Assembly: GCA_003058495.1 (NCBI GenBank)
Contig: QBVC01000033.1
Coordinates: 1 to 64,000 of the forward strand
DNA from: a gamma proteobacterium symbiont of Ctena orbiculata
Lineage (GTDB): Bacteria > Pseudomonadota > Gammaproteobacteria > Chromatiales > Chromatiaceae
Direction of reading: 5' to 3'
DNA length: 64,000 nt
Shown: positions 21,417 to 38,386 of the stretch, piece by piece
How the letters are laid out: every line of letters starts with the position of its first letter
Numbering within the stretch: the first letter of the stretch is position 1
The notes under the pieces: generated by a model
Told to the model about the DNA's origin: nothing
The model's input: only the letters and a program-made list of their open reading frames with translations
The model's database searches: none
Program-made: the position numbers and the translations under genes

Positions 21417-21484
21417 GTGTCGAGAGGCGCTCCCGACAGCGATGATCGACAATACCTTTATATTACTATGATGTGGGTGCGGTG

Positions 21485-23683: not shown

Positions 23684-23910
23684 TAAAGCAATTATCAATA
23701 TTCTAATCAAGGCGTATAGCAGTGTGGGTGATTCCGCCCATCCGCCATGGGCTGAACTCCACTGACAGGGCAAACTGCGTACGGCAGATATGCGCCAGAT
23801 CGGCCTAGCATTTGCCATTCCCCGTGCCGGCATCGCAATCGCTTATTTCTGTTATGATTTTCCAGTGCGATCTCAATGCATACAGTAACTTGCCTGATTT
23901 TGATTCTACC

Positions 23911-23987
23911 TATAGCCAACTCCTATAGAGTTAATCAGAATTAGGTCTTGGACAAATAGAGTTGCCTGGTAAATAGTTTCCCTTAAC
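23911..23987 (+). promoter_or_regulatory. LysR-box promoter element, copy A (before the CbiM-like gene)
   Basis: First of three related 77-bp elements. The LysR-type dyad ATAG-N7-CTAT (23912-23926; T-N11-A spacing) is followed by TTGGAC (23948-23953) and TAAATA (23970-23975) with 16 bp between. If TAAATA is the -10 box, the dyad is centred near -63, the classic position of a LysR recognition site. About 65 of 77 positions match the copy at 28524. A leader of about 190 nt precedes the CbiM-like gene. The rest of the 485-bp spacer has only weak dyads, such as GCCAACCC/GGGTTGGC. Confidence 0.7.
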
Positions 23988-24168
23988 GGTGGCCAACCCG
24001 GTTTTTTTGAGTGGCGGCGTCACAACATAGCGATAACCTGTGAATAGAATCAATTGGGTTGGCAGGCTAAAGTCGGTTTTCACGAAATGTGTGTTACAAC
24101 GAAAGACTCAAACGATGGCGATTTCGTTTGACCAGATGAACCACTAAGTGAGAGGAGAGGGGGTACAG

Positions 24169-24849
24169 ATGCATATTGAACCAGGCGTCGTAGAAGGCGC
24201 AAAAATAGCACTTAGCGTTTTAACGGCAGCAGGTGCGGTGGCATATGCCGCAAAGGCTTCGCTGAGTACAGTCAAACATGATGGCGTCAGTCAGCTTGCG
24301 ACTCGCAGTCTAATAACGACATTCCTGGTATTCTGCTTTTTCCAGGTACTGCCCCACTATCCGGTCGGGGTGTCCGAAGTTCACTTCATTCTCGGCGCGA
24401 CGCTGTTCCTGATCTTTGGTGCCGGACCGGCTGCAATCGGCTTGGCGATGGGTCTGCTGATGCAGGGAGTGCTGTTCGCACCGGCTGACCTGCCTCAGTA
24501 CGGTATCAACGTAACAACCTTATTGGTGCCATTGCTGCTGGTTGATACGATCGCACGTCGCCTGATACCGGCCAAGACCGCGTATAAGGATGTCAAGTAC
24601 AGACAGGCTTTGGCTTTGTCGACTGCCTATCAGGGTGGTGTCGTGGCATGGGTAGCGTTCTGGGCCTTTTACGGACAAGGATTCGGAGCGGAAAACATCG
24701 CCGCAGTAAGCTCGTTCAGTGTGGCGTATATGCTCGTTATTGTTGTCGAACCTTTGCTGGATATAGCGATCCTCGCTGTTGCCAAGTCACTGCATCAACT
24801 CAAAGAGAGCAAGCTGTTCCACTCGCGACTCTATCATTCAGCCGTGTAG
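24169..24849 (+). CDS. Solitary CbiM-like energy-coupling-factor membrane protein
   Basis: A membrane protein of 226 residues with about six helices. Its mature start MHIEPG places His at residue 2, and a second His occurs at about 72 in EVHFILGATLFLIFGAGP. In CbiM/NikM proteins the N-terminal amine, His2 and a His near 67 bind the metal, so cobalt or nickel recognition is likely. I chose the ATG at 24169, preceded by GGAGAGGGGG, because it gives the family start. CbiN, CbiQ and CbiO are absent nearby. It lies behind promoter copy A, shared with the cobalt-dependent thiocyanate hydrolase operon, so a dedicated cobalt supply role is inferred. Confidence 0.72.
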   Translation: MHIEPGVVEGAKIALSVLTAAGAVAYAAKASLSTVKHDGVSQLATRSLITTFLVFCFFQVLPHYPVGVSEVHFILGATLFLIFGAGPAAIGLAMGLLMQGVLFAPADLPQYGINVTTLLVPLLLVDTIARRLIPAKTAYKDVKYRQALALSTAYQGGVVAWVAFWAFYGQGFGAENIAAVSSFSVAYMLVIVVEPLLDIAILAVAKSLHQLKESKLFHSRLYHSAV

Positions 24850-24869
24850 AGGTAGCTGAAAAATACAGG

Positions 24870-24903
24870 GGTCTCCGAATATCGGAGACCTCTTGTTTTT
24901 TAT
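24870..24903 (+). terminator. Intrinsic terminator after the CbiM-like gene
   Basis: A 9-bp perfect stem (GGTCTCCGA with TCGGAGACC) with a three-base loop, followed by TCTTGTTTTTTT. It begins 21 bp past the stop codon and is the clearest rho-independent terminator seen in the window. It separates the CbiM-like gene from the methyltransferase. Confidence 0.88.
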
Positions 24904-24976
24904 AGCTTTCAAATCGACGCCAGGCATGCTGTGTATATCTGCAATGATTCGTGCCGGCTGATTGGAGGTAGTAGCC

Positions 24977-25798
24977 ATGGCTGCGCGGGATCCTCATCGA
25001 TTTGTTAATGAACTTGATGAAACCGCGATAAAACGCCTTATCGACAGGTTGGAGAGTCGCGCCAAAGACAGCGTATTTACCCGGCTTATTGACAAGTATG
25101 CGGAACAACTGGCACTGACCAGGCCTGCCAGGGTGTTGGAGGTCGGTTGCGGCACGGGCGCGATGATTCGCGCTTTTGTTCGACGTAAAGAGTTTACCGG
25201 TCAAGCGATAGGCGTAGACCAGAGCCAACCATTCATCGACGCTGCCAGATACTACGCACAACAAGAACATCTTGGCGAGCGGTTAGAATTTCAATTGGGT
25301 GACGCGCATAATCTGGAGTTTCCCGGCGCATGCTTCGATGTGGTTATTGCCAATACACTTATAAGTCATGTTACCGAGCCGGCGCACGTGCTTGTGGAGA
25401 TGGCCCGTGTGGTAAAGCCGGGCGGCACTCTGGCTATCTTCGATGGCGACTATGCGTCGCTGACATATGCCTACCCCGACCATAAGTTCGGCCAAAAGAT
25501 GGACCAGGCCCTGGCGGCCGCCTCCTTCAATAATCCCCACATAATGCGTGATTTGCCAAAACTGATCGGCGACTACGGGCTTGAACTCGATTCTGCATGG
25601 GGTGATGCAGTGGTGGAAATCGGCAACGGAAGCTACTTTAAATCCTTTGCCGAAACCTATGCACCCTATGTCGCCAACGCCGGACTGTTAAACCATGATG
25701 AGGTTGATAGTTGGTTATCGGTACAAAATGATGCAATGAACCTGGGTACGTTCTTTGCATCCTGTAACTACTACACCTATATGTTGCGTTGTCCTTAA
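24977..25798 (+). CDS. Class I SAM-dependent methyltransferase
   Basis: A 273-residue soluble protein. The SAM-binding motif I is VLEVGCGTGAMIRAF (about residue 53), with the acidic end of strand 2 in IGVDQSQPFID, motif II QLGDAHNLEFP and motif III VVIANTLISHVTEPAHVLVEMARVVKPGG. The start at 24977 follows a GGAGGT site; an in-frame TTG at 24962 is less likely. It sits between the CbiM terminator and the GlcF-like gene and has no copy of the LysR-box element. Substrate is unknown. A thiol or thiocyanate methyl acceptor would fit the neighbourhood but is speculation. Confidence 0.75.
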   Translation: MAARDPHRFVNELDETAIKRLIDRLESRAKDSVFTRLIDKYAEQLALTRPARVLEVGCGTGAMIRAFVRRKEFTGQAIGVDQSQPFIDAARYYAQQEHLGERLEFQLGDAHNLEFPGACFDVVIANTLISHVTEPAHVLVEMARVVKPGGTLAIFDGDYASLTYAYPDHKFGQKMDQALAAASFNNPHIMRDLPKLIGDYGLELDSAWGDAVVEIGNGSYFKSFAETYAPYVANAGLLNHDEVDSWLSVQNDAMNLGTFFASCNYYTYMLRCP

Positions 25799-25865
25799 CT
25801 ATTGCTCTATCCACAGCCCCCATTGCCGTATTGACTCGGCCTGGGCCTGGCGGGCGCATGTTTAG

Positions 25866-25941
25866 CTATAGGTAAATATTATAGAAATGATACAAATAAG
25901 GTCTTTGACAAATAGTGCTGGCCGGTAAATAGTTAAATAAC
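25866..25941 (+). promoter_or_regulatory. LysR-box promoter element, copy B (before the GlcF-like gene)
   Basis: The most divergent of the three copies. The dyad CTATAG-N7-TTATAG (25866-25884) keeps T-N11-A; TTTGAC (25904-25909) and TAAATA (25926-25931) are 16 bp apart. The -10-like box is only about 30 bp before the ATG of the GlcF-like gene, which supports these hexamers as a real promoter. Confidence 0.65.
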
Positions 25942-25960
25942 ATGTGCATATAAAAATCCG

Positions 25961-27262
25961 ATGCAAACCAGTTTTTCAACACAGCAATTGTCAATACCGG
26001 CGATCGCCAGCTCCGATGTCGAGTTGCGGGCATGTCTGCAATGCGACTACTGCACGCCCAACTGCCCAACCTTTCAACTTTTGGGCGACGAATACGACAG
26101 TTCGCGCGGTCGCGTCTATCTGATCAAAGAGCTGCTGGAAAGTGGCGGCAGTCCCGATCAGAAGACGGTGGAATACATAGATCGTTGTCTCTCCTGTCTT
26201 GCCTGTATGTCAACCTGTCCATCGAGTGTGCACTATCAGCATCTGTTGGATCATGCCAGAGATGTCATTGAACAGCGGCATCGGCGAAAACCGATGGACA
26301 GGATATCGCGTTGGATGTTGGCCAAGTTGCTGCCTCATCCGAAGCGATTTCGCCTGGCAATGCATGCGGCGCGTATGCTGAAGCCGGCGGCTTCCAGCTT
26401 GCCCGATCCGATTCGTGGCATGGTGGAGTATACGCCTGACAGTCTGCCGCCTCCGAGCCCAAACGATATACCTCAGGTGTTTCCCGCCCAGGGCGAGAGA
26501 AAGCGGCGGGTGGTGCTGCTGACCGGGTGTGCACAGCAGGCTTTGAATACGGATATCAATGACGCAACTATTCGCATCCTTCGTCGGCACGGCTGTGAGG
26601 TTGTAGTCCCTGCCGGCGCAGGCTGCTGTGGCGCGGTAACACACCATATGGGCAAGGCCAAGGAGAGCCTTGCGGCGGCGGCCAGGAATATACGGGTATG
26701 GATGAAGGAGATCGACGGCGAAGGACTGGATGCGATCGTAATCAATACCAGTGGCTGCGGGACAGTGGTGAAGGATTACGGTTATATGTTCCGCAACGAT
26801 CCCTTGGCGCGGCAGGCGTCGATGATTGCGGCTATGGCGAAGGATATTACAGAGCTGCTTTCGGATATGGATTTGGACTTCAGGGTCAAAGGGGGACTAC
26901 GGATATCCTATCACGCCACCTGCTCGCTGCAATTTGGTCAGCGGGTCAGGTTCACGCCAAAAAAGCTGTTGAAGTCAGCGGGTTTTACCCTGCTTGAACC
27001 AAGGGATTCGCACACCTGCTGCGGTGCCGCCGGAACCTACAACCTGCTCCAGCCGGAGATCTCGAACCGATTGAAGGCGAGTAAGTTGAAAGAGCTTGAG
27101 GCAGGATCACCGGCGGCGATCGCCGCCGGCAATATCGGCTGCATGATGCACCTGGCATCGGCATCCAGGATTCCCGTCGTGCACACTGTCGAGCTGCTGG
27201 ATTGGGTGACGGGTGGGCCGGTACCAAGATCGTTGAACGGCGTCTGCAGCGAAGCTGGTTGA
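25961..27262 (+). CDS. GlcF-like 4Fe-4S/CCG-domain oxidoreductase subunit
   Basis: A 433-residue protein with two N-terminal [4Fe-4S] motifs (CLQCDYCTPNCP and CLSCLACMSTCP) and two CCG domains (AGAGCCGAVTHHMG and HTCCGAAGTYNLLQPE). The arrangement and the phrase TCCGAAGTYNLLQPE match glycolate oxidase iron-sulfur subunit GlcF. The flavin subunits GlcD and GlcE are not present nearby. It is preceded by promoter copy B and followed by a convergent LysR gene. It may serve a glycolate oxidase encoded elsewhere, or act as an electron carrier in the thiocyanate locus; the sequence does not decide. Confidence 0.78.
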   Translation: MQTSFSTQQLSIPAIASSDVELRACLQCDYCTPNCPTFQLLGDEYDSSRGRVYLIKELLESGGSPDQKTVEYIDRCLSCLACMSTCPSSVHYQHLLDHARDVIEQRHRRKPMDRISRWMLAKLLPHPKRFRLAMHAARMLKPAASSLPDPIRGMVEYTPDSLPPPSPNDIPQVFPAQGERKRRVVLLTGCAQQALNTDINDATIRILRRHGCEVVVPAGAGCCGAVTHHMGKAKESLAAAARNIRVWMKEIDGEGLDAIVINTSGCGTVVKDYGYMFRNDPLARQASMIAAMAKDITELLSDMDLDFRVKGGLRISYHATCSLQFGQRVRFTPKKLLKSAGFTLLEPRDSHTCCGAAGTYNLLQPEISNRLKASKLKELEAGSPAAIAAGNIGCMMHLASASRIPVVHTVELLDWVTGGPVPRSLNGVCSEAG

Positions 27263-27370
27263 TACAGCCCGGTTAAGCACTCTCGAATCTCCCCGGCAGT
27301 CTAATGACCGCCCATTTGCAATTAACCCGGGCTATAGAAGCTTATAATGATTTAATTGTTTTTTTCACCG

Positions 27371-28360
27371 CTAATTGTGGTTGTTTGGCGTGCAAACCTC
27401 GGACATGGGGCAAGGACCGGTTCGCTTCACCGGCGTATCGTGACAGCCTTCCACGCCCCAGGCTGCGGCCAACTCCTTGAAGGCTAGAGAGGCGGGGCTC
27501 TTGTAGGAGTCTTTGCGGCAGATGAGCGTGATCGTATGGTGAGGGAGTTCCGGTATCAGCATCACCGGATGGATTTCGTTCTGTTGGCAGGCGATGGTGT
27601 TGGGGAGTATGGTGGCCAGGCGGCCTAGGCGCAGCACTTCTATGATGGTGCTCAGGGAGTTCGTCTCAATGGCGATCGTCGGCTTGATGTCGTGTTCCAG
27701 ACAATAGAGGTCGATATGCCTGCGTAGGGCGAAATCGCTATTCAGAAGAGCCAGGGGCTCCTGTTCGAAGGAGTGCTGATTCAGCGGTGTCTCCATCCCG
27801 GCGTACTGATGGGTTGAACCAACAGCCATATTGAGCGGTTCGATGAACAGATGTTGAGTCTCAATGTATTCATAGTTGGCTGCCACGGTCAGGGTGTTGG
27901 TGAATGCAATGCCGATGTCGATGTTGCCAGCCAGTACCCCGCTCTCGATGTCATCCTGCGGCATCTCGTAGGTACCCACGGATATGCCCGGATAACGCTT
28001 GTTGAAGCGGTCTATCAGTGGGGCCGCTAGATAATCCGTAATCGGCGTCATACCGAGACTCAGGGATCCCCGGCTGAGGTCCTGAAGTTCCTGTATGGCG
28101 CGCTTGCCCGCATCCAGTTCACCAAGGGCTCTTCTTGCATAGCTGATATAGACCTCCCCCGCATCCGTGAGATGGACGTTGCGCCCGGAACGATCCAACA
28201 GTTGGGTTTCAAGAGACTCTTCCAACTGTTTGATTTGTTGCGAGAGTGTGGGTTGAGAAACATACAGGGTTTCTGCCGCGCGGGTAAAGCTGTGATGTTC
28301 GGCGACTGCCAACAGATAGCGCAGCGAGCGGGGGCAGAGGATATTTCGGTCCATAGTCAT
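27371..28360 (-). CDS. CynR-like LysR-family transcription regulator
   Basis: A 329-residue LTTR. The N-terminal helix-turn-helix reads FTRAAETLYVSQPTLSQQIKQLEESL, with a linker helix LGELDAGKRAIQELQDL and a periplasmic-binding-protein-like effector domain. Its start and LTDAGEV, RGSLSLGMTPI and SLSTIIEVLRLGRLATILP closely resemble E. coli CynR, which senses cyanate. The gene is divergent from scnB, whose promoter carries the LysR box at 28525-28539. Effector could therefore be thiocyanate or cyanate (inference). Beginning MTMDRN, the second Met is also possible as a start. Confidence 0.85.
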   Translation of the reverse strand: MTMDRNILCPRSLRYLLAVAEHHSFTRAAETLYVSQPTLSQQIKQLEESLETQLLDRSGRNVHLTDAGEVYISYARRALGELDAGKRAIQELQDLSRGSLSLGMTPITDYLAAPLIDRFNKRYPGISVGTYEMPQDDIESGVLAGNIDIGIAFTNTLTVAANYEYIETQHLFIEPLNMAVGSTHQYAGMETPLNQHSFEQEPLALLNSDFALRRHIDLYCLEHDIKPTIAIETNSLSTIIEVLRLGRLATILPNTIACQQNEIHPVMLIPELPHHTITLICRKDSYKSPASLAFKELAAAWGVEGCHDTPVKRTGPCPMSEVCTPNNHN

Positions 28361-28523
28361 TTCCTATGGAAGTTATAAAAAAAGCGAATTTTACCAATTC
28401 AACAGGAGTGAGTCTTAGTGTAGACCAATATTTAAATTTGTCGTCGGATTGCGGCTAAAAAAGTTCTTTGCCTGGAACTGCCGTTTCCATTCTATGTGGA
28501 TCGCCGGGCCAAGGCCTTATGGC

Positions 28524-28600
28524 CATAGTCATCGCCTATAGAGCTAATCAGATTTTGGTCTTGGACAAATATAGTGGGCTGGTAAATAGTTTGACTTAAC
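28524..28600 (+). promoter_or_regulatory. LysR-box promoter element, copy C (scn operon)
   Basis: A 77-bp element in the 424-bp divergent spacer between the CynR-like gene and scnB. The dyad ATAG-N7-CTAT (28525-28539) is followed by TTGGAC (28561-28566) and TAAATA (28583-28588) with 16 bp between. It matches copy A at about 65 of 77 positions without gaps. A leader of about 190 nt separates it from scnB; part of the leader (around 28729-28764) can pair as ATTAGGT/ACCTAAT. No riboswitch was recognised. Confidence 0.72.
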
Positions 28601-28784
28601 ACGATAGAGAACCGTTCGTTTCGTGATTTATTAAGAAAAGCTTAAGTAAAGCGATCTTCCACATAAAGACGCCACATATCATCGATTGCTTAAGTATCAA
28701 ATCACTATATGCGAAATAGATAAAAGGCATTAGGTAAAAGCGACAGACTTGTTAATAACCTAATCGTAAGGAGGTCACGCGACC

Positions 28785-29216
28785 ATGTCATCAAGCGTCA
28801 GATACAAAGTGATGAAACACCTGGAGATCGTCAAACAGCTCCAACCGTCTCTGCACTATGAAACCCATGCGCCGGCTCCCGATCAGATCGACAACGAACA
28901 CTACCGGGCCTATACGCGGATGTCCCACGACGTGGGGGGTGAACCGGACGTGCCAATCACCTGGGAAGAGAAGGAAGAGGAGGTGTGGGAACACAACACC
29001 TTCGTCACTTGCGAGGTGCTGGCCTGGCGCGGTGTTTGGAATGCCGAGGAGAGGCGTCGCAGGCAGAACGTGGATGTGGGGCAGACCCAATACTTAGGTT
29101 TACCCTACTACGGCCGGTGGTTGCTGACTGCCGCGAGGATACTGGTGGATAAGCAGTACATAACAGTCACCGAATTGTCCGACAAGATTGATGAGGTCAG
29201 AAAACGCTATGAGTAA
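28785..29216 (+). CDS. scnB: Thiocyanate hydrolase beta subunit (NHase beta N-terminal half)
   Basis: A 143-residue protein equivalent to the N-terminal half of a nitrile hydratase beta subunit. Recognisable parts are WEEKEEEVWEHNTFVTCEVLAWRGVWNAEERRR and YLGLPYYGRWLLTAARILVDKQYITVTELSDK. A strong ribosome site (AAGGAGGT) precedes the ATG. In Thiobacillus thioparus the subunit order scnB-scnA-scnC is the same, with the NHase beta chain split into two genes; that split, seen here, distinguishes thiocyanate hydrolase from ordinary nitrile hydratase. The enzyme converts thiocyanate and water to carbonyl sulfide and ammonia. Confidence 0.85.
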   Translation: MSSSVRYKVMKHLEIVKQLQPSLHYETHAPAPDQIDNEHYRAYTRMSHDVGGEPDVPITWEEKEEEVWEHNTFVTCEVLAWRGVWNAEERRRRQNVDVGQTQYLGLPYYGRWLLTAARILVDKQYITVTELSDKIDEVRKRYE

Positions 29217-29577
29217 ACCACATTACGATCGAGAGCATCATGTAAAGAAGGCTACTGGTATCGGTGATCCGCAATGCTTCAAGGGCGAGGCAGGGCCGCC
29301 GAAGTTCAAGGTCGGCGACAAGGTAAGGGTCCGGGACCTCCCCGATATTTTCTACTCCCGCACCCAGGTCTATACCCGCGGTGCAGAGGCAACCGTGGCC
29401 GAGCTGGTCTACGAGAGTCCCGCTCCGGAGGATGAGGCCTGGGACAATACGGAAAAGGTGGTTTGGTTCTACAGTCTGATCTTCAAACAGAAAGATCTAT
29501 GGCCGGACTATCCGGATGCATTTGCAAATGACACCCTGGAGACCGAGCTGCCTGAACGATGGCTTGAGCCCCTATAG
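29209..29577 (+). CDS. scnA: Thiocyanate hydrolase alpha subunit (NHase beta C-terminal half)
   Basis: A 122-residue chain equivalent to the C-terminal half of nitrile hydratase beta: FKVGDKVRVRDLPDIFYSRTQVYTRG is the SH3-like beginning and WFYSLIFKQKDLWPDYPDAFANDTLETELPERWLEPL the typical end. I start at 29209 (MSKPHYDRE), overlapping scnB by eight bases. The reading frame extends further upstream within scnB but lacks family similarity there. It pairs with ScnB in the heterotrimer. Confidence 0.86.
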   Translation: MSKPHYDREHHVKKATGIGDPQCFKGEAGPPKFKVGDKVRVRDLPDIFYSRTQVYTRGAEATVAELVYESPAPEDEAWDNTEKVVWFYSLIFKQKDLWPDYPDAFANDTLETELPERWLEPL

Positions 29578-29637
29578 CAACGGCTGTCACAAAAACCTGC
29601 GCAGTGTATTGGATCAAGAATTAGAGAGGGTAGAGAA

Positions 29638-30333
29638 ATGGCGGAGAAACACAAACCCGCACCAATGGTTGAAGAAGTCAGCGAATTCGAGGTACTCGAA
29701 ATCGCAGTTCGCGAACTTGCGATCGAAAAGGGCCTTTTCACAGCGGAAGATCACCAGCGCTGGACCGAGTATATGCATACCCTGGGTCCGCTGCCCGCGG
29801 CGCGTTTGGTGGCCAAGGCCTGGTTGGATCCTGAATTTAAGAAACTGGCGGTTGAGGATGGCGTGAAGGCGAGTCTGGAGGTTGGCATCGACTGGGTGAA
29901 CAGCATGCCAACCCAGTTCGGCACGCCCAGTGACTACTGCAACCTCCGCGTTTTGGAGGATACGCCGAAGTTGAAACATGTCGTTGTATGCACACTCTGC
30001 TCATGCTACCCGCGTCCCATCCTCGGACAGTCCCCCGAATGGTATCGCACCCCCAACTATCGGCGCCGGTTGGTGCGCTGGCCGCGCCAGGTGCTTGCGG
30101 AGTTCGGACTGCAACTGCCGGATGACGTCGAGGTGAGGGTGGAGGACTCGAACCAGAAATCCCGCTTTATCGTGTTGCCTGTCCGTCCCGAAGGGACCGA
30201 GGGCTGGAGCGAAGACCAGTTGGCCGAGATTGTAACCCGGGACTGCCTGATCGGTGTGGCCATGCCGAAACCGGGGCAGACCGCAAATGATCCGCGTCCC
30301 GTGCGTCCCGCTGTCAATCCCTATCACCACTAG
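29638..30333 (+). CDS. scnC: Thiocyanate hydrolase gamma subunit, cobalt-type
   Basis: The 231-residue catalytic subunit, homologous to nitrile hydratase alpha. The metal site VCTLCSC places Cys118, Cys121 and Cys123; the Thr in C-T-L-C-S-C is the mark of cobalt-type centres. By analogy with T. thioparus, Cys121 and Cys123 would be oxidised to sulfinic and sulfenic acids. Other landmarks are LAIEKGLFTAEDH at the N-terminus, VKASLEVGIDW, YPRPILGQSPEWY and VRVEDSNQKSRFIVLPVRPEGTEGW. Sixty bases separate it from scnA and eight from the activator gene. Confidence 0.92.
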   Translation: MAEKHKPAPMVEEVSEFEVLEIAVRELAIEKGLFTAEDHQRWTEYMHTLGPLPAARLVAKAWLDPEFKKLAVEDGVKASLEVGIDWVNSMPTQFGTPSDYCNLRVLEDTPKLKHVVVCTLCSCYPRPILGQSPEWYRTPNYRRRLVRWPRQVLAEFGLQLPDDVEVRVEDSNQKSRFIVLPVRPEGTEGWSEDQLAEIVTRDCLIGVAMPKPGQTANDPRPVRPAVNPYHH

Positions 30334-30341
30334 GAAGTCCC

Positions 30342-30797
30342 ATGGCAGAGATCAATCCGAAATATCTCGAACTCGACAAAGAGATGCGCGAGCGCAATCT
30401 GGATGAGTCGAAACCGGTTTCACTGCTGGAGGATGTCAAGCAGAAAGGGCGGGTCTGGGACGATCTGTGTGAAGAGTATGGCGTCGACAATCCCGATCCA
30501 CCCTGGCGCATCACCCTCGAGGCGACCTGCGACATGCTCGCCGGCGGTTATTGGGAAACCTTCAATGTCTGTAAGCCCAAGGAGGAGCGCAATCCGGAAG
30601 AGGAAGAGAAAAAGCTGGACGCCGTGGAGCGGCGCTGGGAAGAGGACAAGCTGGTGGAAAAATATTACGAACAGATCCCGTTCCCGGAGAGGCAGTTGCT
30701 TGCCCTGGCCCATACTATGATCCGGCGCGGTTTGTTTGACGAGGAGGAATTAGCACGCCGCATGGAAGAGGTCGATCAGCGTCTGAACAGCGCATGA
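30342..30797 (+). CDS. P15K-like cobalt/oxidation activator of thiocyanate hydrolase
   Basis: A 151-residue acidic protein directly after scnC. The C-terminal part FPERQLLALAHTMIRRGLFDEEELARRMEEV resembles the N-terminal helical region of NHase beta chains, as do the known activators (NhlE, P14K and T. thioparus P15K) that deliver cobalt and help oxidise the active-site cysteines. There is one Cys in TLEATCDMLAGGYW and another in ETFNVCKP. Position and size support the activator role, but the similarity is by motif only. The following 230 bp contain no gene. Confidence 0.72.
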   Translation: MAEINPKYLELDKEMRERNLDESKPVSLLEDVKQKGRVWDDLCEEYGVDNPDPPWRITLEATCDMLAGGYWETFNVCKPKEERNPEEEEKKLDAVERRWEEDKLVEKYYEQIPFPERQLLALAHTMIRRGLFDEEELARRMEEVDQRLNSA

Positions 30798-31027
30798 TCG
30801 TGAAACTGTTTGCTGCTGTCGGTCAGCTGTATCGATCGACGGCGGCTCCACCCGGTTGCCGATGGGCTAATGCGGATGGAGAGTAGAGAGTAATCAACTG
30901 TACGCAGCAGTCATTTAAAACCATCGGGGTGGCGAGAGATCGATGCAGATCCGCTTGCTGACTGGAAAGTGCCTGGCCCCGCTGCAGTAGCAGCAACTAT
31001 CGACACTTTACACAGAGGGTAGATTTA

Positions 31028-31855
31028 ATGTCTATACGCGGAGTCCGCATCAAGATCGAAGAACTTAGCCACCGCTATACATCGAAAAGCCCGATCACTT
31101 TCGACAAGGTCAATCTGGAAGCGAGGCAGGGCGAGATCATCGCCATTATCGGGCGCTCTGGATGCGGTAAATCGACCCTGTTGCATATTCTTGCGGGTCT
31201 GTTGAAACCGACCGACGGTAGCGTGCGTCTTGATGACGTACTGGTAAACGCGCCGTCCCCGCAATGGGTCATGATGTTCCAGGCGCCCCACCTCTTTCCC
31301 TGGATGAAGGTGTCGCAAAATGTCGGCATCGGACTTCACTTCGCCGGCTGGGACGAGTCGAAGATGCGTGACCGGGTGAATGATGCGCTTGATCTTGTCG
31401 ATCTTCAGGACTATGCCGACAACAATGTCCAGGATCTCTCCGGCGGTCAGCAGCAACGTGTGGCGCTTGCCCGCTCCCTGGTTATGGAGCCTGAGCTGCT
31501 GCTCCTGGATGAACCCTTCTCCGCGCTCGACGCCTTCACCCGCGCCTCGCTGCAGCGCGATGTAAGATCGATCGCCAAACGCCTCGGCTTCAACGTGGTG
31601 ATCGTGACCCACGATATCGACGAGGCGGTGTTGATGGCGGATCGTGCCCTGATCATGGCGGGCTCTCCCGGCAAAATCTATGACGAACTCGAAGTCAATC
31701 TCCCCGATCCGCGGGAGCGGCATGACACGGAGGTCCAGGCGATGCGTACACGCCTGATGGAGGCCTTCAAGACAGCCGCCAATGAACACCCGAGCACCTC
31801 CAGCAAGGATGCTAGTGATGAATCCAGTCCACACAATGTCACGCAACATGCCTGA
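31028..31855 (+). CDS. NitT/TauT-type ABC transporter ATP-binding protein
   Basis: A 275-residue ATPase of the TauB/SsuB/NrtD group. Walker A is GRSGCGKST (42-50), the signature LSGGQQQRVALARSL (137-151), Walker B LLLLDEPFSALD (157-168), and THDIDEAV carries the switch His. It would energise import together with the two permeases and the binding protein that follow. The substrate is most likely an anion used by the scn operon, such as thiocyanate or cyanate, but this is inferred from context. Confidence 0.9.
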   Translation: MSIRGVRIKIEELSHRYTSKSPITFDKVNLEARQGEIIAIIGRSGCGKSTLLHILAGLLKPTDGSVRLDDVLVNAPSPQWVMMFQAPHLFPWMKVSQNVGIGLHFAGWDESKMRDRVNDALDLVDLQDYADNNVQDLSGGQQQRVALARSLVMEPELLLLDEPFSALDAFTRASLQRDVRSIAKRLGFNVVIVTHDIDEAVLMADRALIMAGSPGKIYDELEVNLPDPRERHDTEVQAMRTRLMEAFKTAANEHPSTSSKDASDESSPHNVTQHA

Positions 31856-31902
31856 CCCTGCATAAATCGGAACATCCGATTAGCCAACGGAGGATACCGA
31901 AG

Positions 31903-33195
31903 ATGAAAGAGCAGAAGCATCTGATAGACAAGTACGGTGATGGAATCGACGATCCTGAACTTGTCTTGGAATACGATCCGCTATTCAAGAATGTACTGGG
32001 TAGCGGCGTCGACCGGCGCGATTTCCTGAAAATGGGAAGTCTTGCGGCGATGAGCAGCCTGATCCCTTCGGCCGCAACCTTCGCCCAGGAGAAGAAGTGG
32101 GATCCCGTGGTCAAAATCGGCTATATCCCGATCACCGATGCTGCTGCTCTGCTGGTGGCCCATGAACTGGGCTTTTTCAAGAAAGAGGGTATAGAGTCGG
32201 TTCGTCCGACCCTGATCCGCGGTTGGTCGCCCCTGGTCGAGGCCTTCGCTTCGCACCGCTTCAACCTGACCCACATGCTGATTCCGATTCCCATCTGGAT
32301 GCGCTACAACAACAAGTATCCGCTGAAGATCACCGCGTGGGATCACACCAACGGCTCTGCCATCATCGTTCATAAGGACAGCGGCATCAACACGCCCAAG
32401 GACTTCGGCGGCAAACAGTTCGCTGTGCCCTACTGGTACTCGATTCACAACATCGTTTCGCAGAAGATCATGAAAGAGGCCGGCATCAAGCCGGTGATCA
32501 GGCCGCAGAGCGCGAAGCTGGCACCCGATGAGTGCAACTTCCTGGTACTCAACCCACCCGAGATGCCGCCGGCCCTGGCCGCCAAATCGATCGATGGCTA
32601 TTGTGTTGCAGAGCCCTTCAATGCCCTGGGCGAGATCAAGGCGGGTGGCAAGGTGCTGCGATTTACCGGCGACGTCTGGAAGGGGCATCCGTGCTGTGTC
32701 GTGGTGATGCACGAGGCCGATGCCATGGATCCGGATCGCGCGGCCTGGGCCCAGGGCGTGCATAACGCCATCATCGCCGCACAGATCCATCTCGGTGAGA
32801 ACCGGGAGGAGATGGCGCAGCTGCTCTCCCGCGACGGCAAGAAATATCTGCCCTTCCCGAAAAAGGTGATCGAACGGGCCATGCTCTTCTACGACCCCGC
32901 CTACTACAGCAATCCGATTGCGATCAAACATCCCGAGTGGGGGATGAACCGGATCAATTTCCAGAGTTGGCCCTACCGCTCCGCCACCGAACTGGTGGTC
33001 TCGGATCTGAAGTCTACCGTGCTCACCGGCGATGCCAGTTTCCTCGACGGACTCTCGCCGCAGCATGTGGCTGACGACCTGGTCAACTACAAGTTCGTGA
33101 AGAATGCCCTCGAGGCCAATCCGAAATGGAAAAACGACCCGAGCGTGCCCAAGTCCGGCGACCCCTACACCCGGGTAGAGGTGGTTAAACTGTGA
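31903..33195 (+). CDS. NitT/TauT-type substrate-binding protein with Tat signal
   Basis: A 430-residue protein. The twin-arginine signal RRDFLKMGSLAAMSSLIPSAATFAQ begins only at residue 38, so there is an unusually long charged n-region. The mature part has the NrtA/CmpA/TauA-type beginning VVKIGYIPITDAAALLVAHELGFFKKEGIE, then IVHKDSGINTPKDFGGKQFAVPYWYSIHNI. Tat export suggests folding before export or a bound cofactor. It overlaps the first permease by four bases. Ligand unknown; thiocyanate is a reasonable guess. Confidence 0.88.
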   Translation: MKEQKHLIDKYGDGIDDPELVLEYDPLFKNVLGSGVDRRDFLKMGSLAAMSSLIPSAATFAQEKKWDPVVKIGYIPITDAAALLVAHELGFFKKEGIESVRPTLIRGWSPLVEAFASHRFNLTHMLIPIPIWMRYNNKYPLKITAWDHTNGSAIIVHKDSGINTPKDFGGKQFAVPYWYSIHNIVSQKIMKEAGIKPVIRPQSAKLAPDECNFLVLNPPEMPPALAAKSIDGYCVAEPFNALGEIKAGGKVLRFTGDVWKGHPCCVVVMHEADAMDPDRAAWAQGVHNAIIAAQIHLGENREEMAQLLSRDGKKYLPFPKKVIERAMLFYDPAYYSNPIAIKHPEWGMNRINFQSWPYRSATELVVSDLKSTVLTGDASFLDGLSPQHVADDLVNYKFVKNALEANPKWKNDPSVPKSGDPYTRVEVVKL

Positions 33196-34022
33196 GTGAT
33201 GGGGTCGCCTCGTTCAAGGTCGGCGATTCAAAGTCGTACCGCGTCCTGAAATCGTCAGGACGCGGTCTCTATAATTTCTTCGGCGGCCTGGCGATCCTGT
33301 TCGTGTTCTGGTGGATTGGCGGCTATTTCATATCCATCAATCCATCGACGGAGCACTTCGCGGCGTTCGGGCCCATCCCGACGCTCAAGGCCTTTCCTGA
33401 ATTGTGGTCCGCCGGGACCATCCAGAACGCGGTTGCCGCCAGCGGTTACCGGCTTGGTATGGGACTGCTGATAGCGGTCGTCATCGGTGTGCCGATCGGT
33501 ATCCTGATGGGGCGCAGCAAGCGTTTTCGTGAGATCAGTAATTCACCGTTCCAGCTGTTGCGCATGATCAGCCCACTATCGTGGATGCCGCTTGCTGTAG
33601 TTGTTTTCGCGACATGGAATCAGTCGATCATCTTCCTGATTGCCATTGCTTCGGTGTGGCCGGTGGCGTTTGCAACGGCGGCGGGATTGGCAAAAATCGA
33701 TCCGGCCTGGTTCAAGGTGGCGCGTAATCTGGGCGCTACACCCATACATATGATGACAAAGATCATCCTGCCGGCGATCAGTTTCGATGTATTTACCGGT
33801 ATACGGCTTGCGCTGGGCGTGGCATGGATCGTACTTGTACCGGCGGAATTTCTCGGTGTGACTTCAGGTCTCGGATATTCAATTGAAGACGCCAGAGAGA
33901 CATTGTCATACCACCACCTTACCGCCATCGTGTTGGTTATCGGCGCCCTCGGCTACATCCTTGACAGTACCTGCGTCCTGCTGATCAAACACTTCAGCTG
34001 GCACCGTGGAGATTCAGCGTGA
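33192..34022 (+). CDS. ABC transporter permease, first copy
   Basis: A 276-residue membrane protein of the NitT/TauT (BPD_transp_1) type with about six helices and the EAA-like cytoplasmic loop ARNLGATPIHMMTKIILPAISFDVFTGIRLALGVAW. It starts at a GTG that overlaps the stop of the binding-protein gene. Its sequence from GDFG/AAFG onward is near 80 % identical, by eye, to the next gene, so this is a tandem duplication that could give a heterodimeric channel. Confidence 0.9.
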   Translation: MSDGVASFKVGDSKSYRVLKSSGRGLYNFFGGLAILFVFWWIGGYFISINPSTEHFAAFGPIPTLKAFPELWSAGTIQNAVAASGYRLGMGLLIAVVIGVPIGILMGRSKRFREISNSPFQLLRMISPLSWMPLAVVVFATWNQSIIFLIAIASVWPVAFATAAGLAKIDPAWFKVARNLGATPIHMMTKIILPAISFDVFTGIRLALGVAWIVLVPAEFLGVTSGLGYSIEDARETLSYHHLTAIVLVIGALGYILDSTCVLLIKHFSWHRGDSA

Positions 34023-34079
34023 GCATAGAGCAAGCAGAGTATGCAGGGGGTGTTTGCCCGTTGCAGAGGTTGGCTGGCG

Positions 34080-34928
34080 ATGAGTAACAATACCGCGCCT
34101 GCCGGGCTAAACAACCTCAGCAACATGTTGGGTGACAAGGCATCACAGAGATTCTTGAAATCATCCTGGCGTGGCGTGTCGAATTTCGTCATTGGACTGG
34201 CGATCCTGTTCGTGATCTGGTGGTTCGGTATCTATCTGATCTCGTCGAACCCCTCCACCGAGCACTTTGGTGATTTTGGTCCGATTCCGGCATTCAAGGC
34301 AATTCCGGTATTGTGGGATGAGGGGACGATACAGAGTGCGATAACCTCCAGCGGTTACCGTCTGGGCAGCGGTTTGCTGATCGCTATCTGCATCGGTGTA
34401 CCGATCGGTATCCTGATGGGGCGCAGCAGGCGCTTTCGCGAGTTGAGCAACTCGCCGTTTCAGCTGCTGCGCATGATCAGCCCGCTCTCTTGGGAGCCGA
34501 TTGCGGTTATCGTGTTTGTGACCTGGAATCAGGCGATTATCTTCCTGATAGCCATAGCATCGGTTTGGCCGGTCGCCTTTGCAACCGCGGCAGGTCTTGC
34601 CAAGGTGGACCCCGCCTGGTTCAAGGTGGCGCGGAATCTGGGTGCCAAGCCCTGGCATCTCGTAACCCGGATAATCGTGCCGGCAATCTCATTCGATGTG
34701 CTGACGGGAATTCGACTTGCACTCGGCGTCGCCTGGATCGTCCTGGTTCCCGCGGAATTTCTCGGTGTGAGTTCCGGTCTTGGTTACTCGATTCAGGATG
34801 CCCGTGAGGGTCTCTCGTACGACCATCTCATGGCATGGGTGCTTATCATTGGTGCTATCGGCTACGTCCTCGATAGCTCCTGTGTGTGGCTTATAAAACG
34901 TTTCAGTTGGCATCGAGGAGATCAGTGA
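34080..34928 (+). CDS. ABC transporter permease, second copy
   Basis: A 282-residue paralogue of the preceding permease, sharing NPSTEHF, SGYRLG, GVPIGILMGRS, SNSPFQLLRMISPLSW, FLIAIASVWPVAFATAAGLAK and VPAEFLGV. I start at 34080 (MSNNTAPAG), where length agrees with the first copy; an in-frame ATG at 34041 is possible. Differences concentrate in the N-terminus and the last two helices, which may tune ligand passage. It ends the ABC importer genes; no promoter signature is seen before it. Confidence 0.88.
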   Translation: MSNNTAPAGLNNLSNMLGDKASQRFLKSSWRGVSNFVIGLAILFVIWWFGIYLISSNPSTEHFGDFGPIPAFKAIPVLWDEGTIQSAITSSGYRLGSGLLIAICIGVPIGILMGRSRRFRELSNSPFQLLRMISPLSWEPIAVIVFVTWNQAIIFLIAIASVWPVAFATAAGLAKVDPAWFKVARNLGAKPWHLVTRIIVPAISFDVLTGIRLALGVAWIVLVPAEFLGVSSGLGYSIQDAREGLSYDHLMAWVLIIGAIGYVLDSSCVWLIKRFSWHRGDQ

Positions 34929-35016
34929 TATCCAGCGGTTTGCGAAGTGCAGACAGTGACCTGATACGCTTGGTGTCGAGCATATGTTGTGTGCTGTTGG
35001 ACGTGAGGTGTTAGTC

Positions 35017-35286
35017 ATGAGCAGATCACGATTCACTGAAGAACAGATCCTCGCCGTGTTGAAGGAGGCTGAGGAATCCAATGAGAGAATCGCTGAAATT
35101 TGCAATAGACATGGAATCAGCGACGCCACTTTCTACAAGTGGCGGACGAAATATGGCGATCAGTCAGCCAATGATTCGAGGCGTGTGAAGCAATTGGAGG
35201 AGGAGAACAAGCGCCTGCGAGCGCTGGTCGCCGATCTCGCCTTGCGAAATCAGGCGCTGAAGCGCGTGGTGTCGAAGAAGTGGTGA
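35017..35286 (+). mobile_element. Orphan IS3-family OrfA-like protein
   Basis: An 89-residue protein starting MSRSRFTEEQILAVLKEAEE, with a helix-turn-helix (IAEICNRHGISDATFYKWRTKYGD), a leucine-zipper-like stretch (RVKQLEEENKRLRALVADLALRNQALKRV) and the typical end SKKW of IS3 OrfA. The DDE-containing OrfB is missing: only 108 bp lie before the DsrE-like gene, and I saw no inverted terminal repeats. It is either a relic of an insertion or a domesticated DNA-binding protein between the importer and the sulfur genes. Confidence 0.75.
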
Positions 35287-35394
35287 CTGTCTTCCAAGCC
35301 CTGTGCCGCCTCGATTTTCAATGGACGCGGGCCGTGGCATCCATGTTGAACCAGGTTGCAGTGAGAATGAAGCAGAGAGTGAGGCGATAACGAC

Positions 35395-35787
35395 ATGTCC
35401 CAGAATTACCACATCGTTTGCTTGAGCGGAACGCGGGAAAAGTTACAGATGGCTGCGATGTTTGCATCGGTGGCGGCTGCCACCGGCGATCAGGTTACGG
35501 TGTTCTTTTCAATGAATGCCCTGCCCTTTTTTATCAAGGATTCAGACCAGGTTCCAACGGTGGAGGGTCAATTTGGCGAGCTGATGGAAAGCGAAGCGGG
35601 TGTGCCGCCTTTCAAACAACTGTTTAAAAGCGCGGCTGAACTGGGCGATGCCAAGCTGTTGCCCTGTTCAATGGCCCTTGATCTATTGCAGATCGATGGA
35701 GATGCCCTCGATCCCGAGTTGGGTCCGCCTACCGGACTGACTCGGTTCCTCAACGATGCGGAGGGAGGGCAGTTGCTCACCTTTTGA
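35395..35787 (+). CDS. DsrE/F-type sulfur-relay protein
   Basis: A 130-residue protein of the DsrE superfamily: [46 protein letters not shown] is the Rossmann-like start, and the conserved Cys in [12 protein letters not shown] lies at the expected place (about residue 99). The N-terminal Cys at about 9 is a second candidate for sulfur carriage. DsrE-like proteins pass persulfide sulfur between TusA and sulfur-oxidising enzymes. It is followed 41 bp later by a TusA gene. Confidence 0.82.
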
Positions 35788-35828
35788 TTCAATGGCGGCT
35801 CACGCCAATCAGCAAGAGGATTCAATGA

Positions 35829-36059
35829 ATGAGTGAATTTAAAACCATCGATGCACGAAACACGTTTTGCCCGGGGCCGCTTATGGAACTCATTACCTAT
35901 ATGAAGCAGGCGGAAGTCGGCGACATGCTCGAACTGCTGTCGACGGACAGCGGCACGGCATCGGATGTTCCGGAGTGGATCGACAAGGTCGGACACGAAA
36001 TGATCAGCAGCGAAAAGATCGATGATGTCTGGCACTTGAAGGTTCGCAAGCTCAAGTAG
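35829..36059 (+). CDS. tusA: TusA-family sulfur carrier
   Basis: A 76-residue TusA/SirA protein, MSEFKTIDARNTFCPGPLMELITYMKQ. The CPGP motif (C14) carries persulfide. The rest, VGDMLELLSTDSGTASDVPEWIDKVGHEMI, is the usual alpha/beta fold. It could receive sulfur from the flavoprotein encoded 33 bp downstream. In sulfur oxidisers TusA-DsrE pairs feed sDsr or sHdr routes, neither of which lies in this window. Confidence 0.88.
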   Translation: MSEFKTIDARNTFCPGPLMELITYMKQAEVGDMLELLSTDSGTASDVPEWIDKVGHEMISSEKIDDVWHLKVRKLK

Positions 36060-36092
36060 CATACATAAACATCAGTGGATTAGGAGGGTGCA

Positions 36093-37226
36093 ATGAGAAT
36101 CTTAGTCGTCGGTGGTGGCTGCGGTGGCACCATTCTGGCCAATAACCTTGCACGGCGGCTGGCCGGCGAAATCCGCAGCCGCAAGGTCAGGCTCACCATG
36201 TTGTCGGCCTCGGATAAGCATATGTACCAGCCGGGTCTGCTGTATGTGGCGTTTGGCCAGATGATGCCCGATGAGTTGTATCGCGATCAGCAGAGTCTGC
36301 TCGAACCCAGCATCGAATTTCATGTCGATCCGGTCGAGGCCTTCCATCTCGATCAAAACAGGGTTACCACCAAAAGCGGCAGGAGCCACGAGTATGACGT
36401 ACTGGTCATCGCCACCGGCTCGCGAATCGTGCCCGAGGAGGTGCCGGGTCTGGTCGAGGGTTCGGAAACCTTCTACTCCGAGGCCGCCGCGGTTAAGATG
36501 TTCAAGCGGCTGCGGGAGTTCGAGGGGGGCAAGGTCGCGATCGTCGTCGGCGTGCCGCACAAGTGCCCGATCGCCCCGGTCGAGGTGACATTCTCCCTGC
36601 ACGACTATTTCAAGACCCGCGGCATTCGCGACAAGGTGCATATCAAGTACCACTATCCGATCGGTCGAATCCATACCATTGAGAACGTGGCGAAGTGGGC
36701 AAAGCCGGAATTCGACCGCATCGGCGTCGAGTACGAAACCCTGTTCAACGTCAGGGAGGTGGATGTGGAGAATCAGGTGGTGAAGAGCGAGGAGGGCACA
36801 GAGACCGAGTACGATCTGCTGATCTCCATACCCCCTCATCGCGGGATGCCGGTAATCGAACGGGATCAGCTGGGCGATGGGGGTTGGATACCCACGGATC
36901 GGTATAAACTCACCATGGAGGGCCATGACAATGTCTATGTCCTGGGGGACACGACCAATCTGCCGGTCAGCAAGACCGGCTCGGCGGCACACTTCGAGGC
37001 GGAGGTCGTGGCCGAGAATATCTCCTCGATCATAAAGATAGGCACGCCGGTGCGCGACTATGACGGCAAGGTCTACTGCTTTATCGAGGCGGGGCACGAT
37101 CGGGCAACCTATGCGATGTTCAATTACGAAAATCCGCCCGACCTGAAGGCGCCGAATAAATCGATGCACTGGTTTAAGATGAGCTATAACAAAATGTACT
37201 GGACCAGCGTCCGCGGTCTACTTTGA
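36093..37226 (+). CDS. SQR-like FAD-dependent sulfide/persulfide oxidoreductase
   Basis: A 377-residue pyridine-nucleotide-disulfide-type flavoprotein. The FAD motif is VVGGGCGG (6-12), ATGSRI lies at 107-112, a candidate redox pair is Cys158 (VPHKCPIAP) and Cys329 (KVYCFIE), and the second FAD motif is VYVLGDTTN. Cys positions resemble sulfide:quinone reductase and FccB, but the third Cys near residue 128 of classical SQR is missing. It ends YNKMYWTSVRGLL, membrane-peripheral in style. A DUF1641 protein follows 12 bp downstream, as in many SQR operons. It may oxidise sulfide derived from COS. Confidence 0.8.
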   Translation: MRILVVGGGCGGTILANNLARRLAGEIRSRKVRLTMLSASDKHMYQPGLLYVAFGQMMPDELYRDQQSLLEPSIEFHVDPVEAFHLDQNRVTTKSGRSHEYDVLVIATGSRIVPEEVPGLVEGSETFYSEAAAVKMFKRLREFEGGKVAIVVGVPHKCPIAPVEVTFSLHDYFKTRGIRDKVHIKYHYPIGRIHTIENVAKWAKPEFDRIGVEYETLFNVREVDVENQVVKSEEGTETEYDLLISIPPHRGMPVIERDQLGDGGWIPTDRYKLTMEGHDNVYVLGDTTNLPVSKTGSAAHFEAEVVAENISSIIKIGTPVRDYDGKVYCFIEAGHDRATYAMFNYENPPDLKAPNKSMHWFKMSYNKMYWTSVRGLL

Positions 37227-37238
37227 GGAGAGAGGGTC

Positions 37239-37682
37239 ATGACTGCTCAAACTGAATCACCTCAGACTGCAACTGCCGTCGATCCTAATGAACTCGCCCA
37301 TGAATTGGAGCAGCTTTCCGAGCTCGCAACCCTGGTGCTGTCGGCCCGGGACGCGCTGTCGGACGATATCGTCTCCCGTGTCGCCCAGGCATTGAGTGAA
37401 GGGATCACCCTGCTCGATCGTCTGACCCGCAACGAGGGGCTGATGCGCCTGTTGCAGGTCCTCGACACCCCGGAGAGTCAGCATCTGCTGCTTGGCCTCT
37501 CCACGGCCCTCAGTAAGATGAGTCGTGATATCGCCATCTCTCCCCCCTCCAAGGGGGGGCTTGCCGGCGTCGTCAAGCTGGCCATGGAGCCGGGTACCCA
37601 GGAGGGATTGAGATCGCTCTCCCTGCTGGGCAAGTATTGGAGCGACAGCATGCGCGAGCTTCACCGTACCGGCGGTAACTAG
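37239..37682 (+). CDS. DUF1641 protein
   Basis: A 147-residue mostly helical protein (SELATLVLSARDALSDDIVSRVAQALSEGITLLDRLTRNEGLMRLLQVLDTPES, then GGLAGVVKLAMEPGTQEGLRSLSLLGKYWSDSMRELH). DUF1641 proteins accompany SQR and formate-dehydrogenase-like flavoproteins and are thought to be partner or membrane-recruitment subunits, though their biochemistry is not established. Genes end here; the next gene is on the minus strand. Confidence 0.8.
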   Translation: MTAQTESPQTATAVDPNELAHELEQLSELATLVLSARDALSDDIVSRVAQALSEGITLLDRLTRNEGLMRLLQVLDTPESQHLLLGLSTALSKMSRDIAISPPSKGGLAGVVKLAMEPGTQEGLRSLSLLGKYWSDSMRELHRTGGN

Positions 37683-37728
37683 CCCGACGGCGGGCGCGGC
37701 GCCGCTTGTTCGGGGAACGCAGGTTGGA

Positions 37729-38172
37729 TTAATCGATAACCAGCTTCAGCGGCTGCATCTCTTTATACATGATGATCAGCGGCTTCTTCGTGGCGAAGGT
37801 GAGGATGCGGGTGTGCGACGGATAGAAGAGGTGGCTGCAGAGAAACATATGCAGCTCCTCCCCGCCCAGCATAAACGCCTTCAGGCGCTGGATGTTCCTC
37901 GTGTCGATTTCATCATGCAGAGGGTGTTTGTATTGGTTAAACCCGAGGCTGTCGCCGGTTAGCAGGAGTTGCGGGATCTCGTCGTGGTGGCCGAGCAGTT
38001 CATGCTGGGCCTGTTTGCGCAGGGTGGAGGAGAGGATCATGCCGATTCGGTCCTCGCCGAACAGCCAGCTGATCTCACGGGTTTCATCGTAGTCGGCGGT
38101 GTGTTCGCCGAAGGCAAGGCACCAGCCCCTGTAGTAGGCGTTGTATCGTTTGACAATCCGCGAATCAGTCAT
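37729..38172 (-). CDS. Hypothetical protein, 147 residues
   Basis: Not recognised. I start at MTDSRIVKRYNAYYRGWCLAFGEH (38172); the frame is open 18 residues further upstream. Seen in the protein: an N-terminal basic/aromatic stretch, no signal peptide or membrane helix, a His-rich central part (AQHELLGHHDEIPQLLL), FMLGGEELHMFLCSHLFYPSH and a KKPLIIMYKEMQPLKLVID end. It converges on the DUF1641 gene with 46 bp between and sits 214 bp after the minus-strand SLC13 permease gene. No function is suggested. Confidence 0.6.
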   Translation of the reverse strand: MTDSRIVKRYNAYYRGWCLAFGEHTADYDETREISWLFGEDRIGMILSSTLRKQAQHELLGHHDEIPQLLLTGDSLGFNQYKHPLHDEIDTRNIQRLKAFMLGGEELHMFLCSHLFYPSHTRILTFATKKPLIIMYKEMQPLKLVID

Positions 38173-38386
38173 CGTGCGAATAGGGTGGTTGCTAAGTCCT
38201 GCATTGCCGGATGGGCGGGAATGCAAAGAGGAACAAACAACAGCAAGCTGTCTTTAGCCGGTGGTTATGCTGGTGTTCTGGTGCCGGCTCTGCGCTCGTA
38301 TCATGGCTGCTCTCCATACTACTTAAAACAGCCTATCCATACAAACCTGTCACCGCCCGCCAGGGTGGATATTTGTTGAACGGTAG

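Follow-up and report, generated by a model that had tools for sequence, protein, structure and literature searches.

Promoter copies and a start-codon operator point to a CynR-type regulon tied to thiocyanate hydrolase in a clam symbiont

We analysed a 64,000-nucleotide stretch of contig QBVC01000033.1 (hereafter the window) from a gammaproteobacterial symbiont of Ctena orbiculata, whose genome we place in Candidatus Thiodiazotropha on account of a shared genus label. Three copies of one promoter element (A, B and C) precede genes for a CbiM-like cobalt-uptake protein, a GlcF-like iron-sulfur protein and the subunits of thiocyanate hydrolase (scnBAC). A gene for a CynR-like LysR-type regulator diverges from scnBAC and carries a fourth dyad, operator R, on its own start. 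Co-occurrence, footprints and operator geometry strongly support the prediction of a small CynR-type LysR regulon whose promoter copies are tied to thiocyanate hydrolase. We consider it probable that the account as a whole is right, with the CynR-like protein binding at R, A, B and C and the regulon having grown by duplication. Thiocyanate hydrolase is a cobalt enzyme and removes a toxic pollutant; such a regulon would supply it with a candidate regulator and exact operator sequences, and would illustrate how a LysR regulon can expand when an entire divergent promoter is copied. Likely partners of thiocyanate use in these uncultured clam symbionts would then include porins and a lone subunit of a cobalt transporter.

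Promoter copies in the window and the whole genome

An earlier note on this DNA had proposed three copies of a LysR-box promoter, and all were recovered at their places: a repeat finder returned a single family of three 76-base copies (Table 1), with A and C identical at 65 of 77 positions without gaps (23911-23987 against 28524-28600) and B 67% identical to A. The count of three held for the elements and overlooked R. Each copy carries the dyad described in the note, ATAG-N7-CTAT in A and C and ATAG-N7-TTAT in B, 38 base pairs (bp) from the promoter. The promoter boxes themselves required revision. Instead of TAAATA at a 16-bp spacing, a consensus scan favoured AATAGT as the -10 box, 17 bp from T[GT]GACA, in all three copies. 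With this -10 box the dyad centre moves from near -63 to about -65, so that the 15-bp T-N11-A dyad sought near -66 was found at ∼-65, counted from predicted transcription starts at ∼23984 (A), ∼25940 (B) and ∼28597 (C). Overall the promoter scan was near chance (11 promoter-like sites against 9.9 in shuffles), which places the evidential weight on the repetition and conservation of the A, B and C promoter. By eye, TCTTGGAC is likewise conserved, with T-N11-A spacing in most copies and no clear dyad.

A core pattern, T[GT]GACAAATA-N5-GNCNGGTAAATAGTT, matched the window three times at up to three mismatches and was found in none of 100 shuffled windows. Across the whole 4.53-megabase genome (4,527,148 bases, 51 contigs) A, B and C were the only matches, and the reversed control gave none. 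Together with the sequence-model searches described below, in which the best 150 candidates per genome were scored, this led us to reject a genome-wide scatter of the element. The dyad alone was discarded as an unspecific search tool: its exact matches, four in the genome on both strands, all lie inside the window, and with one mismatch allowed the reversed control gave more matches (26) than the dyad (15). An Rfam search at gathering cut-offs (window 23000-39000) gave 0 matches, and a cobalamin element or another RNA element of known type was rejected for the long leaders. If B is the promoter of glcF, the leader of this gene (window 25940-25961) would be about 21 bases long and, by eye, is without a clear Shine-Dalgarno sequence.

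Table 1. Features of the thiocyanate hydrolase cluster in the window
Feature	Position	Strand	Details
Element A	23911..23986	+	Dyad 23912-23926 (centre 23919, ∼-65), TGGACA 23949-23954, AATAGT 23972-23977; before cbiM
cbiM	24169..24849	+	CbiM-like cobalt-uptake membrane protein, lone subunit, starts MHIEPG; PF01891 64.7 bits, cut-off 23.1
Terminator-like hairpin	24867..24900	+	Intrinsic-terminator-like, with T run, 3' of cbiM; terminator scan
Methyltransferase	24977..25798	+	S-adenosylmethionine-dependent; PF08241; no element of its own
Element B	25867..25942	+	Dyad 25868-25882, TTGACA 25905-25910, AATAGT 25928-25933; directly before glcF
glcF	25961..27262	+	GlcF-like iron-sulfur protein; NF008434 418 bits, cut-off 333
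cynR-like	27371..28354	-	CynR-like LysR regulator; NF008416 CynR 368.9 bits, cut-off 277
Operator R	28351..28370	.	Fourth dyad, CCATAGTCATTTCCTATGGA, covers cynR-like start
Element C	28524..28599	+	Dyad 28525-28539, TGGACA 28562-28567, AATAGT 28585-28590; before scn operon
scnB, scnA, scnC	28785..30333	+	Thiocyanate hydrolase subunits; PF21006, PF02211, PF02979
Open reading frames likely downstream of C	30342..37682	+	Pfam/NCBIfam matches; gene order kept in relatives

The CynR-like regulator and operator R

The regulator is of the LysR type (PF00126 HTH_1, 87.9 bits; PF03466 LysR_substrate, 117.6 bits), passes the CynR equivalog model and is 46% identical to Escherichia coli CynR. Its helix-turn-helix stretch is close to that of the E. 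coli protein (VSQPTLSQQIKQLEE versus VSQPALSQQIRQLEE). The E. coli strand TPTFTSYF, which we take to line the effector pocket, reads TP-ITDYL here, one residue fewer, and the C-terminus is longer in most aligned members. We corrected the start of the gene to 28354 (second ATG, MDRN...), the methionine that corresponds to the start in relatives. The divergent arrangement with C proposed earlier was upheld, with the CynR equivalog on the minus strand and the scn operon on the plus strand.

Read on the cynR strand, R consists of ATAGGA, which contains a Shine-Dalgarno-like run, and CTATG, which contains the start codon. The dyad spans the cynR start in all 11 scn-positive genomes of the genus. 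Judged from its sequence, an operator on the regulator's own start codon is compatible with negative autoregulation of the CynR-like gene.

Distribution and conservation within the genus

Among 56 genomes searched, scnB was present in 11, all of them among the 22 genomes of the genus, and the CynR-like gene (E <= 1e-60) was found in the same 11 of the 22; the G012 copy is divided between two contigs, its larger part containing a stop. The core element, at up to three mismatches, occurred in ten genus genomes, all scn-positive, and the eleventh, G012, has a copy C with four mismatches. A sequence model of the element was built from 27 of 33 copies, which match it by construction. Matches at E < 1e-5 were confined to the 11 genomes carrying scnB and the cynR-like gene, the best match in the other 11 having an E value of 0.0118.

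R and C are found in 11/11 scn-positive genus genomes. A precedes cbiM in every one of the ten genomes in which the region is present (in G012 its place lies off the contig), in agreement with the proposed tie of cobalt transport to the regulon. B and a further copy, D, which occurs only in relatives, are each present in 7/11. Wherever both parts were found, dyad and promoter are 38 bp apart (32/32 copies of A to D); in the partly decayed R copy of G007 the spacing is 39. Conservation is concentrated on the elements. In A it reaches 0.89-0.99, while upstream bins range over 0.39-0.62 and leader bins ahead of the ribosome-binding region over 0.49-0.83. Element C scores 0.80-1.0 and the bins separating it from R score 0.51-0.85; a single leader bin 3' of C reaches 0.90. 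A-B pairs are 57-72% identical versus 76-86% for A-C pairs, and by this measure of sequence B is a more divergent subtype of the element.

Loci beyond the genus

A ScnC scan yielded 28 loci, eight from the genus and 20 others. Within ∼5 kilobases of scnB, 13 of the 20 non-genus loci have a CynR-like gene (at least 49% identity), and the element model matched in ten at E <= 5. In a class-wide sample of 369 genomes, CynR (E <= 1e-70, with at most five candidates per genome scored) was found in ten, and ScnC exceeded its curated cut-off in the identical ten. An eleventh ScnC match, in G247, fell below the cut-off, and that genome is without CynR at E <= 1e-70. Using E. coli CynR as the query returned the same ten genomes and one weaker at E <= 1e-50. 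Thresholds for this sample were our choice and the genomes are related, so we assign no probability to the overlap.

Pooling the non-genus loci of both sets gave 21, or 19 distinct loci after removal of two duplicates. Sixteen of these 19 have a dyad whose first base lies exactly 13 bases ahead of the A in the cynR ATG. The dyad occurs 51 times in 278,519 bases (both strands, true sites included), which makes a chance match at one fixed position very unlikely. In the -13 register the left half-site contributes ATAGG, which resembles a Shine-Dalgarno sequence, and the right one extends into the start codon. On the divergent strand, 14 of the 16 loci have TCTT (mostly TCTTGGA) exactly 34 bases past the dyad start; it lies two bases later in L120 and is missing from L124. 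The divergent TCTTGGAC-like box points at scnB in most loci, at the methyltransferase gene in L119 and at cynS, the cyanase gene, in L126 and L141.

A proposed regulon

From sequence, position, conservation and co-occurrence we infer binding, autorepression, activation, an inducer and a direction of duplication. The CynR-like protein would be a LysR-type regulator dedicated to the use of thiocyanate, and possibly cyanate, that binds ATAG-N7-CTAT dyads. Binding at R, over its own Shine-Dalgarno sequence and start codon, would repress the cynR-like gene. At A, B and C the dyad at about -65 would recruit the regulator to T[GT]GACA-17-AATAGT, a weak promoter from which the inducer-bound protein would activate transcription. 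In the window the regulator would target cbiM, to supply the cobalt enzyme with its metal, the GlcF-like gene, and scnBAC along with the genes for transport and sulfide oxidation.

An ancestral, divergent cynR promoter was probably duplicated as the regulon grew, and A, B, C and D would be copies of it. In non-genus loci a TCTTGGAC-like box stands a fixed distance after the R dyad, in most of them toward scnB; given the dyad at -13 and the set position of TCTT, a single divergent promoter appears to have been the ancestral unit. Within the genus R and C stand in tandem, and in G001, G003, G007 and G012 R remains almost complete as an element (model hits 2-62), in keeping with duplication of the divergent unit. 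We further propose, tentatively and with slightly more doubt than belief, that the regulator represents a distinct CynR branch, 'ScnR', acting as a dedicated thiocyanate sensor. Its operator would be fused with its own translation start (the left half-site serving as Shine-Dalgarno sequence, the right holding the ATG), and the divergent unit would have been copied whole into a multi-promoter regulon that added cobalt uptake and, in some lineages, cyanase and outer-membrane pores.

Several observations weigh against the regulon as proposed. The copies show no clear second or third inverted repeats at -44/-34 of the E. coli type. B is absent from four of the 11 scn-positive genomes and decayed in G010. 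At three mismatches the reversed core pattern matched once each in G004 and G009 (2/22 genus genomes), and since the best 150 first-look candidates per genome were scored with the element model, weak members could be missed. A solitary element-like site outside the cluster, on contig C27 of G010 (Candidatus T. endolucinida, locus L108; ∼2449-2521, 38 bits, E 4.9e-9), precedes two open reading frames of 213 and 176 residues without Pfam families. Beyond the genus, no CynR was found near scnB in seven of the 20 scn loci, one of which (L121) is cut by a contig end, and three of the 19 distinct loci (L127, L139 and L144) lack the dyad at the cynR start. Finally, cynS of the window genome has no element in the ∼1.27 kilobases upstream, and contig C13, on which it lies, has no model match; cynS was therefore rejected as a regulon member in this genome.

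Alternative explanations

The identity of A and C is what recent copies would show, and G010 has one stray copy, so A, B and C could in principle be a small dispersed repeat or a recent duplication without regulatory role. We regard this as highly improbable. A and C keep their own subtypes across species (mean A-A 0.89 and C-C 0.91 versus A-C 0.81), which argues that the copies are old; their flanks have diverged, each copy lies upstream of and is oriented toward the next gene of the cluster, and the dyad and TCTTGGAC-like box are retained in distant loci. A narrower objection concerns B, for which the link to the iron-sulfur protein claimed in the earlier note stands only in part. In the window B abuts glcF, and no OprD-type porin is present. 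In G001 and G003, B instead precedes such a porin (PF03573, tested on G003), which ends ∼20 bp before glcF. The porin frame is broken in G020 and G004, and a significant porin remnant was looked for and not found in G000, G006 and G010. Where glcF directly follows the methyltransferase gene (G021, G016, G007 and G012) there is no B, and in G021 and G016 a terminator-like hairpin 3' of cbiM lies between A and the methyltransferase and glcF genes, so that glcF there is not tied to the element. B may accordingly be the leftover of a porin operon, its place before glcF an accident of porin loss and glcF not specifically controlled. We think this possible and lean against it: the B core of the window genome has no mismatches, glcF in G001 and G003 would be co-transcribed with the porin from B, and in G007 and G012, where glcF follows cbiM, cynS and the methyltransferase gene, transcription from A could reach it (in G012, A lies off the contig).

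The more serious alternative, which we put not far below an even chance, is that the regulator responds to cyanate, like E. coli CynR, and that the thiocyanate genes are switched on only indirectly. Passage of the CynR equivalog cut-off agrees with this, as does the distribution of cynS, which is found in ten of the 22 genus genomes, all scn-positive (10/11, one as a fragment, against 0/11 of the others). In four of them, G001, G007, G012 and, as the fragment, G003, cynS comes after cbiM. In contrast, the regulator tracks scn in both the genus and the class samples, G010 has the regulator without cynS, and the shortened TP-ITDYL strand departs from the E. coli protein. Thiocyanate hydrolase forms carbonyl sulfide and ammonia (PMC6504805), and as its product is not cyanate, sensing of the substrate by the CynR-like regulator is attractive.

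Comparison with known systems

For E. coli CynR, three 15-bp repeats of the form ATAA-n7-TTAT are predicted at -66, -44 and -34; the protein activates with cyanate, and its autorepression is cyanate-independent (PMC5002191). The system described here resembles cynR-cynTSX in its CynR equivalog, its divergent gene pair and a dyad close to the regulator's start, and its 15-bp dyad with N7 spacer is centred at a matching position (-65/-66). The half-sites differ by one base pair each (ATAG/CTAT here, ATAA/TTAT in E. coli), B doing so in the left half only. The dyad lies at -13 of the regulator ATG and includes the start codon, whereas E. coli has a dyad-like stretch at -24. The divergent operon is scnBAC instead of cynTSX, the cynS of the window genome lying on contig C13, and several promoter copies serve cbiM, the GlcF-like gene and, in relatives, porins.

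An scn gene cluster has been described from Thiobacillus thioparus DSM 505 and Thioalkalivibrio thiocyanodenitrificans (PMC5328954). Its scnABC, hypothetical protein, NitT/TauT-type transporter, DsrE/F-like protein and SQR recall the window, and in T. thioparus cyanase, a methylase and a single cobalt transporter subunit lie upstream (PMC5328954). The word LysR is absent from the main text of that paper, and the passages considered describe neither an operator nor element copies or porins. Cyanate genes under CynF (PMC6627978) and clusters for thiocyanate dehydrogenase (PMC6504805) are regulated in a sigma-54-dependent manner; they concern the same substrates with another regulator class and promoter type than the CynR-like regulon. 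Expression of thiocyanate hydrolase and cyanate hydratase has been reported for a Thiodiazotropha (PMC11171427). Among the titles and abstract openings surveyed we recognised no LysR operator of scn genes, nor did we find a description of this operator, of the way it overlaps the start codon of the regulator gene, of the promoter copies or of a distinct 'ScnR' branch.

Genes of the cluster and neighbouring observations

The CbiM-like protein scores under the cut-offs of all four NCBIfam CbiM models that it matched. CbiN, CbiQ and CbiO were absent from the neighbours examined, the rest of the genome not having been searched. The terminator scan found 19 sites like the one 3' of cbiM against 11.4 in shuffles. 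Comparable hairpins follow cbiM in L047, L048 and L049; L055, where cynS comes next after cbiM, has no plus-strand hairpin at the corresponding place. Owing to the hairpin after cbiM, the methyltransferase gene is not tied to the regulon in the window, and we rejected it as a demonstrated member. Neither glcD nor glcE was found among the genes examined, to which this comparison was confined.

ScnC, the gamma subunit, passes the equivalog TIGR03887 (394.7 bits, cut-off 291.45) and adjoins two NHase-beta-like genes; we take scnB and scnA to encode the beta and alpha subunits. Downstream (30342..37682) follow a 151-residue protein without family match, which in place and size presumably corresponds to the P15K activator, an ABC ATPase, an NMT1-like binding protein, two permeases, an IS3 OrfA-like helix-turn-helix protein, a DsrE-like protein, an oxidoreductase that we assume to be SQR-like and one more open reading frame, presumably DUF1641-like. 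In relatives, copy D precedes an outer-membrane-like protein of 487-502 residues with a sub-threshold Alginate_exp match in six of seven genomes (G006, G020, G003, G007, G004 and G012), the contig of G001 ending there.

The lone IS3 OrfA-like protein (PF01527; 34984-35286) is encoded between the second permease and DsrE-like genes. Its position is kept in nine genus relatives (68-87% identical; in a tenth the contig ends earlier) and in L120 and L126 (60-64%), and this kept place suggests a domesticated part of a transposase. On contig C13 of the window genome (L077, 7910-15014) a second CbiM-like gene accompanies cyanase, a WD40 protein, a CobW-like GTPase and transporter genes. Just upstream of the cluster lies a gene for a reprolysin-like M12B metalloprotease (21473-23683), relatives of which stand on the same side in nine genus relatives, with none in the available stretch of G007.

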